Assembly (NCBI GenBank): GCA_903926935.1
Contig: CAIYLB010000108.1
Location: 1 to 36,914 of the forward strand
Length of the DNA stretch: 36,914 nucleotides
From: an uncultured Pseudomonadota bacterium
GTDB taxonomy: Bacteria; Pseudomonadota; Gammaproteobacteria; Burkholderiales; Methylophilaceae
Reading direction: 5' to 3'
Under the pieces are notes generated by a model. That model ran no database searches. It saw only the letters and a list, made by a program, of their open reading frames with translations, and was not told where the DNA came from. Of this stretch, positions 12,461 to 20,418 are shown piece after piece; positions within the stretch are counted from its first letter, which is position 1; each line of letters starts with the position of its first letter. The translations under genes were made by a program, and so were the position numbers.

Positions 12461-12943
12461 CTACAAAAATCGGTCTAGCAATTTTCGGCTGTGCTGATCT
12501 AACTGGTCTATGTCGCGAATGATAAAGTTAACGCCATGGCCATCGGTAATGAGCAGGCTGGTGTGTGTCAGTCTACGGATGTGCTCTTCGGCTTTGAGCA
12601 CTAGTTCAGTGTCACCTCTATCTGTTTCAACTTGCCAAGTGCTTGGCGTGGCAAAACTGGATGCGTGGCTAATGCTACGAATTTCCGGCATAAATTCACG
12701 GCGAGCAAGTTCTTCTTCAATTAGGCTGCGTGTTGCATTTGGCAATGCTTTTAAGCTGGCTATCCATGCTAGTTCGTGGCCATTTGAACCGATTAAGGAT
12801 AAACCTTCTGCTGGCGCCGAAATAGGAAACGCACGCATGGGGAAAACGCCATCATGAATTGTACCGTCGCTGGCGGTAAGCACTAGGCGACCAGCGGCGC
12901 TTCTTATGAGGCTAAAGTTAGTAAATAAGGTGAATTGTTCCAT
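12461..12943 (-). CDS. DUF1854 family protein (cyanophycin-locus associated)
   Basis: FSLIRSAAGRLVLTASDGTIHDGVFPMRAFPISAPAEGLSLIGSNGHELAWIASL...LARREFMPEIRSISHASSFATPSTWQVETDRGDTELVLKAEEHIRRL is DUF1854-like. It directly follows the ABC transporter gene. Confidence 0.85.
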   Translation of the reverse strand: MEQFTLFTNFSLIRSAAGRLVLTASDGTIHDGVFPMRAFPISAPAEGLSLIGSNGHELAWIASLKALPNATRSLIEEELARREFMPEIRSISHASSFATPSTWQVETDRGDTELVLKAEEHIRRLTHTSLLITDGHGVNFIIRDIDQLDQHSRKLLDRFL

Positions 12944-12945
12944 GA

Positions 12946-15282
12946 CTAGGCGCTAGCTTCTTGGTGAGTCATTTGATTTTTCGTGAGTGTGTCATTATTG
13001 GCCACATCATCCAAGTCGGTATCTACATTACGCGCTTGTGCTTGGTAGAGGCGATAATAAGCGCCTTCGCGTGCCATGAGTTCGTCGTGGCTACCGACTT
13101 CAACAATTTCACCGCGGTCTAATACCACCAATCGATTAGCCTTGTGTAGCGTAGATAGGCGATGGGCAATGGCAATCGTGGTACGACCATGCACTAGGTT
13201 GTCTAAAGCTTTTTGTATCTCTTTTTCAGTTTCGGTATCTACTGAAGCGGTCGCTTCGTCGAGTATCAAAATACGTGGATCAATAAGTAAAGCGCGGGCA
13301 ATTGAAATCCGCTGGCGTTCGCCGCCAGATAAGCCCTGGCCACGTTCGCCTACCAGCGAATCATAGCCATGCGGTAGCCGTAAAATAAACTCATGTGCAT
13401 GGGCAGCGCGGGCGGCTGACACGATTTCTGCACGGGTCGCTTCTGGTTTACCATAGGCTATATTTTCGGCAATGCTACCAAAAAATAGAAATGGTTCTTG
13501 TAGCACTAGGCCAATATTACGCCTGTATTCTGCAATAGGCAGCGAGCGAATATTCACGCCATCTAAGTTGATAGAGCCGGTGGTTACGTCGTAGAAGCGG
13601 CACATTAAGTTTACTAAGGTACTTTTGCCTGAGCCGCTGTGGCCGACCAGTCCTATCATTTCGCCCGGCTGTATGATTAGACTTAAGTCCTTAATCACTG
13701 CGCGGTTGCCGTAGCGAAAACCGGCTGATTTAATCTCAATCTGTCCAACTACTTTATCAAGATGTACTGGGTTGCTTGGTTCTGGAACGCTGGAAACATG
13801 GTCAAGAATGTCAAAAATGCGTTTAGCGCCAGAAGCGGCTTTTTGCGTGACAGAAACAATGCGGCTCATAGAATCTAGCCGCGTATAAAAGCGGCTGATA
13901 TACGCCAAAAAGGCTGTCAGTACACCTACGCTAATTTCATTGTGTGATACTTGCCATATACCAAACGCCCACACTAAAAGCAGGCCGATTTCCGTCAGTA
14001 AGGTCACGCTGGGTGAAAATAGTGACCATATTTTATTGATGCGGTCATTGACGATTAAATTATGCTGATTGGCTTCGCGGAAGCGCTTGGCTTCACGCGA
14101 TTCCTGTGCAAATGCTTTTACCACACGAATGCCGGGAATAGTATCGGCCAGCACGTTGCTGACTTCTGACCAGACGCGGTCTATTTTTTCAAAGCCGGTA
14201 CGCAATCTGTCGCGCACAATATGAATCATCCAAGCGATGAAAGGTAGCGGTAGCAAGGTGACCAAGGCTAGCTTAGGGTTAATAGAGATCAGAATCGCTG
14301 AAGTCATAATAATCATCAGCACATCTGTGGCAAAGTCGAGTAGATGCAGTGATAAAAACACACAGATACGGTCGGATTCTGAGCCTATGCGCGACATTAA
14401 ATCGCCTGTGCGTTTGCCGCCAAAATATTCCAGTGAAAGCTTGAGTAAATGCTCATAAGTAATCGTGCGTAAATCCGCACCTATACGTTCGCTGACCAGC
14501 GCTAGAATATAAGTGCGCGCCCAGCCTAAACTCCAAGCCAATAGCGCCGAGCCAAGCAAGCCGCTTAATAATAATGCCACCATGCTAACATCAATCGGCG
14601 CACCGTTTTGGTAGGGAATTAATACCTTGTCCATCAACGGAATGGTTAAGTAAGGCGGAACGAGTGTAGCCGCAGTAGAAGCCAACATCAGTAAAAAACC
14701 TGTGAGCAATTGCCATTGGTATGGTTTGGCAAAACGCCATAAGCGGAATAGCGTCCAAGTGGATGGCGGTGCATCGATAGTGCTACTGCATTGCGGGCAC
14801 TCGTCTTGATCGGCTTCTAGTGGAGTTTGGCAATTAGGACAAGTTTCAGACGCTTCCGCCACGATAGGCTGGCCATTTAGAAAACTGGCAAGTTGCAGCT
14901 CAAATTGTTTAATAAAGCGCGATGCAGAAAAGTCGTTAGCCAGTGTGTAAAACCAATGGCCTAAGCGTATTTCACCGTTTTCACCGCCAAATAATTCAAC
15001 ATTGGCCACGCCTGCATTGTCGTGGTGTTTTAGGGTTAAGTTAGCTTTGAACGGATAAGTCGCATGCTTTTCTGACGCATTAGCATCCACTGAAGTTATA
15101 CTGACTAAGCGCTGGTTGGTAATGAATAATAAGCTTTTTTTAAAATGTAGCGCAGCATCAAGATTGATCTCAAGCCATGCGCAAATCTCTTCGCTACTTT
15201 CTAGTTGTGCCTGTGCCGCCGCCTGCCATGCGGCTGGTAAGGTTTTGTTAGTAATAATTGTAGGGAGTATTTTGTTGTTCAC
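12946..15282 (-). CDS. ABC transporter (fused permease/ATPase) with N-terminal domain and zinc ribbon; cyanophycin-locus associated
   Basis: Walker A GLVGHSGSGKST, signature LSGGERQRISIARALL, Walker B RILILDEATASVD, exporter TM domain. N-terminal zinc ribbon CPNCQTPLEADQDECPQC. Confidence 0.93.
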   Translation of the reverse strand: MNNKILPTIITNKTLPAAWQAAAQAQLESSEEICAWLEINLDAALHFKKSLLFITNQRLVSITSVDANASEKHATYPFKANLTLKHHDNAGVANVELFGGENGEIRLGHWFYTLANDFSASRFIKQFELQLASFLNGQPIVAEASETCPNCQTPLEADQDECPQCSSTIDAPPSTWTLFRLWRFAKPYQWQLLTGFLLMLASTAATLVPPYLTIPLMDKVLIPYQNGAPIDVSMVALLLSGLLGSALLAWSLGWARTYILALVSERIGADLRTITYEHLLKLSLEYFGGKRTGDLMSRIGSESDRICVFLSLHLLDFATDVLMIIMTSAILISINPKLALVTLLPLPFIAWMIHIVRDRLRTGFEKIDRVWSEVSNVLADTIPGIRVVKAFAQESREAKRFREANQHNLIVNDRINKIWSLFSPSVTLLTEIGLLLVWAFGIWQVSHNEISVGVLTAFLAYISRFYTRLDSMSRIVSVTQKAASGAKRIFDILDHVSSVPEPSNPVHLDKVVGQIEIKSAGFRYGNRAVIKDLSLIIQPGEMIGLVGHSGSGKSTLVNLMCRFYDVTTGSINLDGVNIRSLPIAEYRRNIGLVLQEPFLFFGSIAENIAYGKPEATRAEIVSAARAAHAHEFILRLPHGYDSLVGERGQGLSGGERQRISIARALLIDPRILILDEATASVDTETEKEIQKALDNLVHGRTTIAIAHRLSTLHKANRLVVLDRGEIVEVGSHDELMAREGAYYRLYQAQARNVDTDLDDVANNDTLTKNQMTHQEASA

Positions 15283-15420: not shown

Positions 15421-17607
15421 ATGAAGTTCATCAAAATACTACCTCTGCGCGGACCCAATTTATGGACTTATCGTCCAGTATTAGAGGCATGGCTAGACAT
15501 AGGCGTGCTAGAAGATTCACCGTCTAATACGCTGCCTGGCTTTTATGAGCGACTTACCGCTTGGCTGCCTTCTTTAGTTGAGCATCGCTGTGGCATCGGT
15601 GAGCGCGGCGGATTTTTGCAGCGTGTCCGCGAAGGTACTTGGCCTGGCCATATTTTGGAACATGTTACGCTAGAATTGCAAACCTTAGCCGGAATGCAAG
15701 GTGGTTTTGGCAAGGCGCGTAGCACCTGTGTGCGTGGCGTTTATAAGGTGGTAGTACGGTCACGTAACGAACAAGTAAGCCGTGTGGCTATGCATGCGGC
15801 ACGGGATTTAGTTGTCGCAGCTATTGAAGATAAGCCATTTGATTTACCTGCCACGCTCAGCCAGTTACGAGAAATGGTCGATTCGCTTTGCCTAGGTCCC
15901 AGCACGGCTTGTATTGTAGACGCGGCAACTGAGCGCAATATTCCGTCGATACGTCTGACTGATGGTAATTTAGTGCAACTTGGCTATGGCGCTAACCAGC
16001 ATCGCATTTGGACGGCTGAAACTGATCAAACGAGTGCTATCGCTGAAGGCATTTCTAGCGATAAAGATCTTACCAAAAAATTATTACAATCATGTGGTGT
16101 GCCTGTTCCTGAGGGTCGTATCGTTGACGATGCGGCTGACGCTTGGGATGCGGCTGAAGATATTGGTTTGCCAGTCGTGGTTAAGCCTAGCGATGGTAAT
16201 CATGGGCGCGGCGTATCTACTGAGTTGATGACTCGTGAAGAAGTAGAGGCGGCATTTACCTTAGCCGATGCTGAGGGTAGTGAAGTAATCGTTGAGCGCT
16301 TTGTTCGCGGCAATGAGCATCGCTTATTAATTGTCGGTGGCAAATTGGCAGCAGCGGCTAAGGGCGAGTCTGTTTCTGTTGTCGGTGATGGTGTTGCCTC
16401 AGTCAGACAGTTGATTGATGTGCAAATTAATACAGATACTAGGCGTGGCGAGGCGGAAGAGTTTCCGCTGGATTTAATCTTAGTTGACCAAAATGCTTCT
16501 GTGGTTTTTGAAATCAACCGGCAAGGTTTTACGCCAGATTCAATTTTACCGCAGGGTAAACAAGTGATTATTCAACGCAATGGTAATGTGGCGCTGGATG
16601 TCACTGACCTTGTGCATCCTGAAGTCGCTGCGATGGCCGCGCTGGCGGCGCGTATTGTCGGCTTGGATATTGCTGGCATTGATATGGTGGCAGAAGATAT
16701 TTCGCAGCCTTTAGATCAACAACGTGGTGCAATTGTCGAGGTGAATGCTGGGCCAGGTTTATTGATGCATCTTAAACCCGCTGAAGGTGAAGCGCGCCCG
16801 GTCGGTAAAGCAATTGTCGACAGTCTTTTTGTTGAAGGCGCGGTGGGTCGTATTCCTGTGGTTGGGATTACTGGCTCACATGGCGCCAGTTTGACCGCGC
16901 AAATTATCGCAAGCTTGGTGCATTTGAACGGTAAGCATGTTGGTTTGGCTTGCCGTGATGGTCTTTATTTGGATAAGCGCCAAGTAGATAAGCGTGATTG
17001 TGCCACTTGGGCTGCCGCGCAAAAGCTATTGATTAATCGGATGGTAGAAACTGCCGTGATTGAAAATAGTCTCAGCACTATTTTGGCTGAAGGTTTGGGC
17101 TATGACCGTTGCCAAGTAGGCGTAGTGATTAATATCGAGCCTGAGAGACACTACGGTGAGCATTATCTAGAAACGCCAGAGCAAGTTTGTAATGTGGTGC
17201 GCACACAAGTCGATGTGGTACTGGGCAGTGGTGTAGCGGTGCTGAATGCAGAAGATTTATTAGTTGTTAACATGGCTGAATTGTGTGACGGCGAAGTGAT
17301 TTTATTCGCACAAAATGCAACATCGCCAACGATTGAAGCGCATTTAAAGGCCGGCGGTAGAGCGGTGTTGCTTAATGATGGTTGTATCGCATTAGCCACT
17401 GCAAGCCAGCAAATATTACTGACCAAATTAGCAGCGCTACCATTTTTGCAAGTGGCTCAAGAAAATGCTGCAAAAGATACGCCAAAAGACACTCAAGTCA
17501 TGTCCTTATTGGCCGCAATAGGCGCTGCATGGGCGCTAGGTATTTCTGCTGAGATTATCAGTGCGGGCATCGAAACTTTTGAAGTTAAACCTACTGAAGC
17601 AAACTGA
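15421..17607 (+). CDS. Cyanophycin synthetase paralogue (CphA'/CphA2-like) with degenerate Mur-ligase domain
   Basis: MKFIKILPLRGPNLWTYRPV...SLVEHRCGIGERGGFLQRVREGTWPGHILEHVTLELQ (CphA N-domain), ATP-grasp VVKPSDGNHGRGVS. Mur-ligase-like region has GSHGASLT instead of GTNGKTTT and stops early. Likely start ATG 15421. Confidence 0.92.
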   Translation: MKFIKILPLRGPNLWTYRPVLEAWLDIGVLEDSPSNTLPGFYERLTAWLPSLVEHRCGIGERGGFLQRVREGTWPGHILEHVTLELQTLAGMQGGFGKARSTCVRGVYKVVVRSRNEQVSRVAMHAARDLVVAAIEDKPFDLPATLSQLREMVDSLCLGPSTACIVDAATERNIPSIRLTDGNLVQLGYGANQHRIWTAETDQTSAIAEGISSDKDLTKKLLQSCGVPVPEGRIVDDAADAWDAAEDIGLPVVVKPSDGNHGRGVSTELMTREEVEAAFTLADAEGSEVIVERFVRGNEHRLLIVGGKLAAAAKGESVSVVGDGVASVRQLIDVQINTDTRRGEAEEFPLDLILVDQNASVVFEINRQGFTPDSILPQGKQVIIQRNGNVALDVTDLVHPEVAAMAALAARIVGLDIAGIDMVAEDISQPLDQQRGAIVEVNAGPGLLMHLKPAEGEARPVGKAIVDSLFVEGAVGRIPVVGITGSHGASLTAQIIASLVHLNGKHVGLACRDGLYLDKRQVDKRDCATWAAAQKLLINRMVETAVIENSLSTILAEGLGYDRCQVGVVINIEPERHYGEHYLETPEQVCNVVRTQVDVVLGSGVAVLNAEDLLVVNMAELCDGEVILFAQNATSPTIEAHLKAGGRAVLLNDGCIALATASQQILLTKLAALPFLQVAQENAAKDTPKDTQVMSLLAAIGAAWALGISAEIISAGIETFEVKPTEAN

Positions 17608-17670
17608 CTTGAAGCAGATGAATAGTCTGATCATAAATATGTTGTGTATAAAAACAAGGAAAACTGTTTG

Positions 17671-20241
17671 ATGGAAGTCTCACGTATTCGTGCGCTGCGC
17701 GGCCCTAATCTATGGAGCCGGCATACCGCCATTGAAGCTGTTGTAAACTGTAGCGAGTTGGAATGCAATATTGCCAATATTAGCGGTTTTGAATCACGCT
17801 TGCGTGCGCGATTTCCAGAAATTGGCCCATTACAATTAGCGGGCCACGAAGAGGCGGTTTCTTTAGCGCATGTGTTGCAGTTGGCGGCGCTAGCGCTGCA
17901 AGCACAATCGGGCTGTCCTGTGACTTTTAGCCGAACTGCGGCAACGTTAGAGCCGGGAGTGTATCAAGTGGTCATTGAATATACTGAAGAAGCAGTTGGG
18001 CGGCAGGCGCTTAACTTGGCGATTCACCTTTGCCAATCTGCGGTTGCCAATGCGCCTTTTGAGCTCACTACGGCATTAGCCCAGCTCAAAGATTTAGATG
18101 AAGATGTGCGTTTAGGACCGAGTACTGGCGCTATTGTGGATGCTGCGATCATTCGTGGCATTCCATTCAGACGCTTAACTGAAGGTAGCTTGGTACAGTT
18201 TGGTTGGGGCAGTAAGCAACGCCGCATACAAGCTGCTGAAACCGATAATACTAGCGCCATTGGTGAAGCGATTGCGCAAGATAAAGAATTAACCAAACGA
18301 CTACTCGATGCCGCTGGTGTGCCTGTGCCTTCTGGCCGAGGAGTTACTGATGTTGAGGATGCTTGGCTGGCGATGGCTGAAATTGCTGGCCCTGTGGTGG
18401 TGAAGCCTAAAGATGGTAATCAAGGCAAAGGCGTTACGGTTAATATCAATAGCCGCGAGCAATTAAATATAGCCTATGCCGCTGCTTCTGAAATTAGCGA
18501 AGAAGTATTGATTGAGCGATTTATTCCGGGCAGTGATTTCCGCTTTTTAGTCGTCGGTAATAAGTTGGTTGCAGCAGCTAGGCGAGAGCCGCCCTTAGTC
18601 ATAGGCGATGGTGTACAAAGCGTTCTCCAATTAGTCGAACAAGTGAATTCAGACCCGCGCCGTGGCGCAGGACATGCCACTTCATTAACCAAGATTCGGA
18701 TTGATGATATTGCGCTAGCCAGCTTGGCAGCGCAAAACTTTACTGTTGATAGTGTGCCGAACAAAGGTGCACGCGTTGTGCTACGAAGCAATGCCAATTT
18801 AAGTACAGGTGGTACCGCTACCGACGTGACTGACGATGTGCATCCTGATTTGGCAGCCAGCGCAGTAGCCGCTGCAATCATGATAGGTTTAGATATTTGT
18901 GGTGTCGATGTGGTGTGCGACAGCGTGCAACGCTCGCTAGAAAAACAAGGTGGCGGGGTCGTTGAAGTGAATGCGGCCCCAGGTTTGCGTATGCATTTGC
19001 AGCCATCGTTCGGCAAAGGCCGTCCGGTAGGTGAAGCGATAATTTCCAGCATGTTTGCAGCTGGTGACAATGGTCGTATTCCAGTGGTGACGGTTGCCGG
19101 CACTAACGGGAAAACCACAACAGTACGGCTAATTGCTCACATTATGACTTGCCAAGGTTTGAGAGTCGGTATGACTAACTCTGATGGCGTTTATATTCAA
19201 GGTAAGCGTATTGATACCGGCGATTGCAGTGGACCAAAAAGCGCACGTAATGTGTTGATGCATCCTGACGTTGATGCTGCAGTTTTTGAGACCGCACGAG
19301 GCGGTGTGTTGCGTGAAGGTTTGGCGTTTGACCGCTGCGATGTCGCGGTGGTGACTAATATCGGCATGGGCGATCATTTAGGTTTGAGTTACATCACAAC
19401 CGTAGAAGATTTGGCTGTGGTGAAGCGTGTGGTTGTGCAAAATGTTTCACCTGATGGTGTAGCTGTCTTAAATGCGGCTGATCCAATGTCTGCGCTTATG
19501 GCTAGCGCATGCCCTGGCTCAGTCACGTTTTTTGCTTTAGATCGCAACCATTCGATTATGGCTACGCATAGAGCGCAAGGTCGTCGTGTGGTTTATGTGG
19601 AAAATGGCCATATTGTGGCGGCGCAACATCAAGATGAGCATCATATTGATTTAGCTGAGATTCCGATTACAAGAAACGGTAGCATAGGCTTTCAGGTGGA
19701 AAATGTAATGGCGGCAGTCGCTGCGGCCTGGGCCATTAACGTCGATTGGCATTTGATCCGTAAAGGCGTGGCTAGCTTTGTTAGTGATGCGCAAACAGCA
19801 CCTGGCCGCTTTAACTTTTTTGATTATCGCGGCGCTAGTGTGATTGCTGATTATGGTCATAACCCTGATGCGATTTTGGCCTTGGTGGCTGCTGTGGATA
19901 GTATTCCTGCAAAAAAACGTTTGGTAGTGATTAGTGGTGCGGGCGATAGGCGCGATGTTGATATTAGCCGTCAGACTGAAATTTTAGGCGATGCTTTCGA
20001 TGAGATTATTTTGTACCAAGATCAATGTCAGCGTGGCCGTGAAGATGGAGAAGTGTTGAAACTGCTACAACAGGGCTTAATTAAAGCCCAGCGAGCTAAA
20101 AAAGTGGACGAGATTACTGGAGAATTTTTAGCGATTGATACCGCGCTGGCTAAATTGCAGGCCGGTGATTTATGTCTGATTTTAATTGATCAAGTAGATG
20201 AAGCGCTTGCGCATATTGCTCAGCGCGTCGCTGAAAGTTAA
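17671..20241 (+). CDS. cphA: Cyanophycin synthetase
   Basis: RIRALRGPNLWSRHTAIE, ATP-grasp VVKPKDGNQGKGVTVN, Mur-ligase P-loop VTVAGTNGKTTTVRLIAH, FETARGGVLREGLAFDRCDVAVVTNIGMGDHLG, C-terminal DYGHNPDAILAL...GAGDRRD. ATG 17671 with SD aagga. Confidence 0.95.
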   Translation: MEVSRIRALRGPNLWSRHTAIEAVVNCSELECNIANISGFESRLRARFPEIGPLQLAGHEEAVSLAHVLQLAALALQAQSGCPVTFSRTAATLEPGVYQVVIEYTEEAVGRQALNLAIHLCQSAVANAPFELTTALAQLKDLDEDVRLGPSTGAIVDAAIIRGIPFRRLTEGSLVQFGWGSKQRRIQAAETDNTSAIGEAIAQDKELTKRLLDAAGVPVPSGRGVTDVEDAWLAMAEIAGPVVVKPKDGNQGKGVTVNINSREQLNIAYAAASEISEEVLIERFIPGSDFRFLVVGNKLVAAARREPPLVIGDGVQSVLQLVEQVNSDPRRGAGHATSLTKIRIDDIALASLAAQNFTVDSVPNKGARVVLRSNANLSTGGTATDVTDDVHPDLAASAVAAAIMIGLDICGVDVVCDSVQRSLEKQGGGVVEVNAAPGLRMHLQPSFGKGRPVGEAIISSMFAAGDNGRIPVVTVAGTNGKTTTVRLIAHIMTCQGLRVGMTNSDGVYIQGKRIDTGDCSGPKSARNVLMHPDVDAAVFETARGGVLREGLAFDRCDVAVVTNIGMGDHLGLSYITTVEDLAVVKRVVVQNVSPDGVAVLNAADPMSALMASACPGSVTFFALDRNHSIMATHRAQGRRVVYVENGHIVAAQHQDEHHIDLAEIPITRNGSIGFQVENVMAAVAAAWAINVDWHLIRKGVASFVSDAQTAPGRFNFFDYRGASVIADYGHNPDAILALVAAVDSIPAKKRLVVISGAGDRRDVDISRQTEILGDAFDEIILYQDQCQRGREDGEVLKLLQQGLIKAQRAKKVDEITGEFLAIDTALAKLQAGDLCLILIDQVDEALAHIAQRVAES

Positions 20242-20268
20242 ATTTTTAATCTAAATATCGACACTATG

Positions 20269-20293
20269 AAAAGCCGCATTCGTGCGGTTTTTT
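20269..20293 (+). terminator. Rho-independent terminator after cphA
   Basis: aaaagCCGCAttcgTGCGGttttttggttttt: hairpin plus T-tract. Confidence 0.9.
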
Positions 20294-20418
20294 GGTTTTT
20301 ATGGGATTTCAAACGCCTAACATCTTGTTTTCAAATAAAACGAGCGCGTGTGTTTGGTCGCATTGGCTTGGTGTGTGAGGTATAATTTCGTTTTTAGATT
20401 TTAGCTATCATTTAACCT

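Follow-up and report, generated by a model that had tools for sequence, protein, structure and literature searches.

A tandem cphA'/cphA gene pair with complementary active sites as a predicted divided cyanophycin synthetase

Can the activities of a cyanophycin synthetase be divided between two neighbouring genes? CphA1 is a polymerase with a built-in primer-making site, and cutting and building are then not separately regulated (PMC9262961). SuCphA1 (Synechocystis UTEX2470) and TeCphA1 (Trichodesmium) carry three activities on one polypeptide, whereas in the window, the 36,914-nucleotide stretch of DNA analyzed here, these appear to be divided between two proteins of the same N-G-M architecture and fold. 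A preliminary description of the locus had proposed that two adjacent synthetase genes had reciprocally lost active-site motifs. Both open reading frames, and the motifs quoted for them, were recovered by us on alignment. The window is part of a draft genome of 2.2 Mb, to which Methylophilaceae/Methylotenera are the nearest named relatives, and cphA had no match in 14 other sampled members of this family. The locus is organized as follows.

12461 to 12943, minus strand: DUF1854 protein (NCBIfam NF052234, cyanophycin metabolism-associated)
12946 to 15282, minus strand: divergent ABC transporter upstream of cphA' (NCBIfam NF052233, cyanophycin metabolism-associated)
15421 to 17607, plus strand: cphA', CphA1 paralogue of 728 aa, start ATG at 15421
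17671 to 20241, plus strand: cphA, predicted polymerase of the pair, 856 aa, start ATG at 17671
20267 to 20294, plus strand: terminator-like hairpin 3' of cphA, at a position fitting an operon end

The two genes lie on the same strand, 63 bp apart. In related genomes the gap has a median of about 38 bp and does not exceed 100 bp in 147 of 158 complete pairs; because of these short gaps, cphA' and cphA likely form one operon. Terminator-like hairpins as a class were no more numerous than in shuffled sequences. The ABC transporter was found at 60 of 65 related loci and the DUF1854 gene at 58 of 65, while neither adjoined the solitary cphA1 genes at the loci checked. Our literature search found no paper linking cyanophycin to 'J-loop' or DUF1854.

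In order to determine which sites survive in each protein, we mapped their residues onto SuCphA1 and TeCphA1, two enzymes in which mutants and cryo-EM have established the sites (PMC9262961, PMC9427784). The following features were located in cphA'.

15589 to 15663, plus strand: Cx19HxxEH metallopeptidase motif (C57/H77/E80/H81) of the predicted endo-cyanophycinase N domain
16363 to 16365, plus strand: Gly315, replacing the Asp-binding Arg323 of TeCphA1/SuCphA1
16585 to 16593, plus strand: site in the ATP-grasp domain at which the large G-omega loop (NLSTGG) is deleted, with loss of Ser396
16762 to 16764, plus strand: Leu448, replacing the Asp-binding Arg458
16873 to 16896, plus strand: Mur-ligase P-loop GSHGASLT, degenerate, with Ala489 at the position of Lys499
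17062 to 17097, plus strand: ENSLSTILAEGL, replacing ETARGGxLRxGL
17200 to 17214, plus strand: Arg594 and Asp598 of the Mur core, at the positions of Su S603/E607

Cx19HxxEH is the motif of the CphA1 N-domain endo-cyanophycinase (PMC9262961). It occurs literally in CphA', for which a complete N-domain block had been described, and the N-site was complete (H55, C57, F65, R68, H77, E80, H81, E85), including the second-shell residues H57, F67, R70 and E87 in SuCphA1 numbering. The ATP-grasp domain had been called intact. This held for the ATP and metal residues but not for the aspartate site, in which R323 has become Gly, R458 has become Leu and the loop carrying S396 is deleted; Ala mutants at N394, R323 or R458 impair TeCphA1 (PMC9262961, PMC9427784). 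The Mur loop was degenerate, in agreement with the preliminary description, and the Mur C-terminal lobe was missing as well, since Pfam Mur_ligase_C matched CphA only. CphA' thus lacks the aspartate-binding residues, the Mur catalytic residues and the Mur C-lobe of a CphA1, and scored 744 bits against the NCBIfam equivalog TIGR02068, below its cut-off of 850. The Mur-core positions S603 and E607 of SuCphA1 line the substrate cleft of the N-site and contact the chain (PMC9262961). The AlphaFold model of CphA' (pLDDT 92.7) had as its best PDB match 7txv, the SuCphA1 E82Q complex with a chain in the N-site. CphA' is predicted to be an endo-cyanophycinase subunit that has lost its Asp-ligation and Mur sites.

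A complementary set of features was located in cphA.

17869 to 17883, plus strand: HVLQL, remnant of HxxEH in the N domain
18421 to 18423, plus strand: Gln251, replacing the catalytic His267 in the ATP-grasp P-loop (Gln in 161 of 163 CphA)
18796 to 18813, plus strand: intact G-omega loop NLSTGG (N376, S378)
19099 to 19122, plus strand: intact Mur P-loop GTNGKTTT
19804 to 20184, plus strand: Mur ligase C-terminal lobe (Pfam Mur_ligase_C), CphA only

Here the N-site reads L54, L56, H67, Q70 and L71, and the segment spanning F67/R70 of SuCphA1 is deleted. Relocation of the site within CphA was considered and ruled out, Cx19HxxEH being absent from every CphA reading frame tested. The ATP and aspartate sites were present (K261, R309, R323, N394, S396, R458), as were the P-loop, ETARGG, DH and C-lobe of the Mur ligase. 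The earlier view of CphA as a protein with intact ligases and no N-block stands with one correction: the position of His267, which is catalytic in characterized CphA1s and whose Ala mutant is inactive, carries Gln in CphA, while CphA' keeps His. CphA scored 990 bits against TIGR02068, above the cut-off, and its AlphaFold model (pLDDT 90.8) had CphA1 as its best structural match. CphA is thus the predicted polymerase of the pair, with both ligase sites intact and the N-site lost.

The preliminary description had also allowed that CphA' might act as a CphA2, repolymerizing beta-Asp-Arg dipeptides with its ATP-grasp domain. The conserved ATP site, the absent Mur C-lobe and the change of R458 to a hydrophobic residue, the last two as in CphA2, are in keeping with this proposal, and CphA2 proteins (Gloeothece 7TA5, Stanieria 8FXH) likewise combine an ATP-grasp domain with a truncated Mur domain. 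However, a G-domain alignment extracted with a masked query indicated that R323 and the G-omega loop N-x-S, both lost in CphA', are present in 7TA5, and the N-site motif retained by CphA' is absent from CphA2 (PMC9262961). Further ATP-grasp substitutions, at P-loop or metal-site positions, occur in the CphA' of three pairs from another order (see below). Because CphA' lacks R323 and the G-omega loop, we disfavour the CphA2-like reading, the part of the preliminary description that is not supported, and regard it as very improbable.

We next asked how general the reciprocal loss is. The alignment comprised 66 loci from contigs of related genomes, plus 100 regions found by surveying the order Burkholderiales, where 148 of 399 genomes gave a match. 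The gene order, CphA' followed by CphA on a single strand, was the same in 162 of 162 pairs. The reciprocal pattern (N-site C-H-E-H in CphA' only, aspartate site in CphA only) was found in 161 of them, the lone exception being cut by a contig end. Among 138 non-redundant pairs, C59, H83 and E87 were kept in every CphA', F67 and R70 being also invariant, and all five positions were free or deleted in CphA. Conversely, K499, R561, D585 and H586 were kept in 138 of 138 CphA and drifted in CphA'. This invariance in both proteins indicates that the reciprocal loss is not due to chance, and the split is far more general than one window. At the cleft positions S603/E607, CphA' carried R in 167 of 167 proteins of the census and D in 166 of 167. 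W672, a tetramer-interface residue whose conservation might have pointed to heteromers, was conserved in neither protein. Solitary CphA1s of the same class had all three sites in 13 of 13 cases, leaving out one odd protein without N-site (G623), and so did most of the other solitary CphA1s surveyed.

The constraint was unevenly distributed over the domains. Mean pairwise identity in the 138 pairs was 0.65 for the N domain of CphA' versus 0.61 for that of CphA, and 0.48 versus 0.69 for the Mur core. Median dN/dS values in CphA' were 0.26 (N), 0.29 (G) and 0.48 (M-core), compared with 0.24-0.26 for the corresponding CphA domains; synonymous sites being partly saturated, only the relative values are meaningful. 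The raised M-core value and the progressive loss of the Mur domain are what a decaying pseudogene copy would display. However, the frame of cphA' is intact in essentially all loci, its N and G domains are under purifying selection, and order and strand are constant in 162 pairs, so that conservation already refutes this explanation, to which we give practically no weight.

Could CphA' instead lack catalysis and serve as a structural or regulatory subunit, stabilizing CphA or sensing ATP, with an N-site retained for binding? Its fold is retained at high confidence in the AlphaFold model, and the ATP site of its ATP-grasp domain (K220, K261, H267, R309, D431, E450) is 97-100% conserved in Burkholderiales in the absence of an aspartate site. 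This conservation also speaks against a role of CphA' confined to its N domain, which does not account for it. Yet every tested residue that holds the metal or acts as general base (C, H, E, H), like H57 and E87 in the second shell, is invariant, beyond what chain binding would need; we consider a dead subunit unlikely.

The pair was also present in three genomes of another order (family f93: G091, G608, G702), which extends beyond Burkholderiales the co-occurrence that the preliminary description had suggested surveying. HCFRHEHE is preserved in their CphA', in contrast to the decayed residues of ATP-grasp and Mur, and R and D again occupy the S603/E607 positions. In G091 the ATP-grasp domain lacks most catalytic residues and is not recognized by Pfam, and the Mur site is dead, while the N-site is perfect; in G608 and G702 the decay affects G-domain positions. 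Judged from their sequences, these pairs outside Burkholderiales are the strongest natural experiment. Two further pairs, at loci labelled Akkermansia/Akkermansiaceae (L067, L070), are very similar to betaproteobacterial ones; misbinning is likely and they were not counted as another phylum.

These patterns acquire a functional meaning from published work on CphA1, from which the site functions and trans-complementation are taken; anatomy, conservation, phylogeny and co-occurrence come from the present analysis. Cutting of cyanophycin by the N domain yields mainly (beta-Asp-Arg)4, an efficient primer. N-dead TmCphA1 becomes robustly primer-independent in the presence of SuCphA1 inactivated in G, in M or in both, and an N-G+M+/N+G-M- heterodimer of SuCphA1 is active (all PMC9262961). 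That engineered pair, built from point mutants, divides the labour in the same way and works. The natural pair, known here from sequence, has diverged and is encoded by two genes; in its predicted sites it matches the published constructs site by site. Since a ligase-dead, N-active CphA1 rescues an N-dead CphA1 in trans, the proposed division of labour is well supported, including the assignment of CphA as polymerase and CphA' as trimming or primer-making protein put forward in the preliminary description, whose interpretation as a whole is partly supported.

We therefore favour, as the probable explanation, a divided cyanophycin synthetase in which CphA' cuts chains into primers and CphA polymerizes. 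CphA would elongate the chain, adding aspartate through its ATP-grasp site and arginine through its Mur-ligase site, but would be unable to make its own primers because the metallopeptidase site of its N domain is lost. CphA' would ligate neither residue; with its N-site and the cleft-lining residues of its Mur core, it would convert long chains into short oligomers, which CphA would use as primers, whether the two proteins act in trans or form a mixed oligomer. Its dead ligase domains would be retained mainly for folding of the N domain and chain binding; the isolated N domain of CphA1 is insoluble until an M-contacting loop is mutated (PMC9262961). That CphA' cuts, CphA polymerizes and cutting serves priming in this organism is what we infer from this comparison.

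Three observations keep our confidence good rather than complete. One is the ATP site of CphA'. The second is Gln267 of CphA, which makes its activity less than certain because the Ala mutant of this His inactivates other CphA1s. TmCphA1 (Tatumella) resembles CphA in having intact G and M sites and no N-site (PMC9262961); however, the primer-dependent TmCphA1 and AbCphA1 (Acinetobacter) keep H267, whereas CphA has Q and accompanies CphA'. No report of TmCphA1 or AbCphA1 as members of such a pair was found in the literature searched. The third concerns the R. eutropha H16 homologues: in the passage of PMC8560796 that cites Adames 2013, their expression is stated to have given no detectable cyanophycin. 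The split could explain why these CphA proteins yielded no detectable polymer.

The same cutting activity could serve another end, CphA' being mainly a depolymerase that mobilizes stored cyanophycin with its N-site, priming being secondary. A cyanophycinase above the TIGR02069 cut-off was found in 22 of 22 genomes with a solitary CphA1 and in only 6 of 58 genomes with the pair (Fisher p about 1e-14, uncorrected for phylogeny). The lack of a betaproteobacterial cyanophycinase has awaited explanation since 2002 (PMC5178258), the enzyme being found in 2.8% of Betaproteobacteria (PMC10206079). Against a mainly degradative role, the N-domain activity is slow and halts at tetramers rather than dipeptides (PMC9262961), and cphA' probably shares an operon with the polymerase gene. 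In addition, the genome of the window encodes an S51-like protein (contig C35, L244 1312-2307, minus strand) with a signal-peptide-like start and GGTSAG, scoring below the cut-off; it is possibly an exported cyanophycinase-like enzyme and might degrade cyanophycin outside the cytoplasm. We thus hold this alternative to be possible but doubtful. CphA' may nevertheless also help to degrade the polymer, a role that would need further enzymes because tetramers and not dipeptides result; Asparaginase_2 had no match in the genome of the window. More speculative still is the idea that in Burkholderiales CphA' replaces the missing cyanophycinase, one endopeptidase subunit setting both chain starts and polymer mobilization with a balance tunable by subunit ratio. 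CphA' is in any case a candidate for the long-missing cyanophycin-cleaving activity of Betaproteobacteria.

How did the pair arise? In a G-domain tree built without the trait columns, CphA' and CphA formed sister clades (support 100 for CphA', 95 for CphA and 96 for both together). This suggests that the pair probably goes back to a single duplication of an ancestral three-site CphA1, after which the two copies lost sites reciprocally. Duplication and loss shared among the pairs by descent count as a single origin, not as 161 independent events. A swap of N domains was rejected, the N, G and M trees each separating CphA' from CphA. About ten CphA' (Cupriavidus-like) retain a full Mur domain with GTNGKTV and have already lost the aspartate site, which suggests that this site was lost first in CphA'.

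The paired cphA/cphA' homologues of Betaproteobacteria were reportedly described by Fuser and Steinbuchel in 2007, and Adames 2013 is said to have noted a missing loop in CphA'. Those of R. eutropha H16, Accumulibacter (PMC10687191) and Sideroxydans (PMC5178258) are the same gene pair, and its adjacency, its co-expression in Accumulibacter and the missing cyanophycinase have been published (PMC10687191, PMC5178258). In the open-access literature searched, we found no account of a complementary split of active sites or of a primer-making role. The tandem pair is thus already known, while the complementary division of the three sites is apparently new. A large bacterial group would then separate cutting and building into two genes.

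Several unusual CphA-like genes were encountered. The unpaired synthetase of G477, whose N-site carries C59S and H79R, adjoins an S51 cyanophycinase (L196 3486-6164 and 1666-3489), and a further CphA copy lies on a separate contig. A Mur-only CphA-like ligase was found 3' of solitary cphA1 genes (L250 7686-9443, L251 2567-4729, L237 6317-8053), in some cases with cyanophycinase and beta-aspartyl peptidase genes adjoining. On a Legionella adelaidensis plasmid, a CphA1-like gene (L240 3501-5369) joins N to Mur without ATP-grasp; genes for a cyanophycinase and an isoaspartyl peptidase lie beside it. A CphA-like protein of 775 aa (G128, L119 1090-3414, minus strand) is degenerate at its N, aspartate and Mur sites alike. 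In G123, CphA is encoded by two overlapping reading frames (L228 3267-6081), through a frameshift or an assembly error. Finally, a CphA-like ATP-grasp stretch lies inside a CapA-family protein on a Microvirga plasmid (L239 2006-5020).
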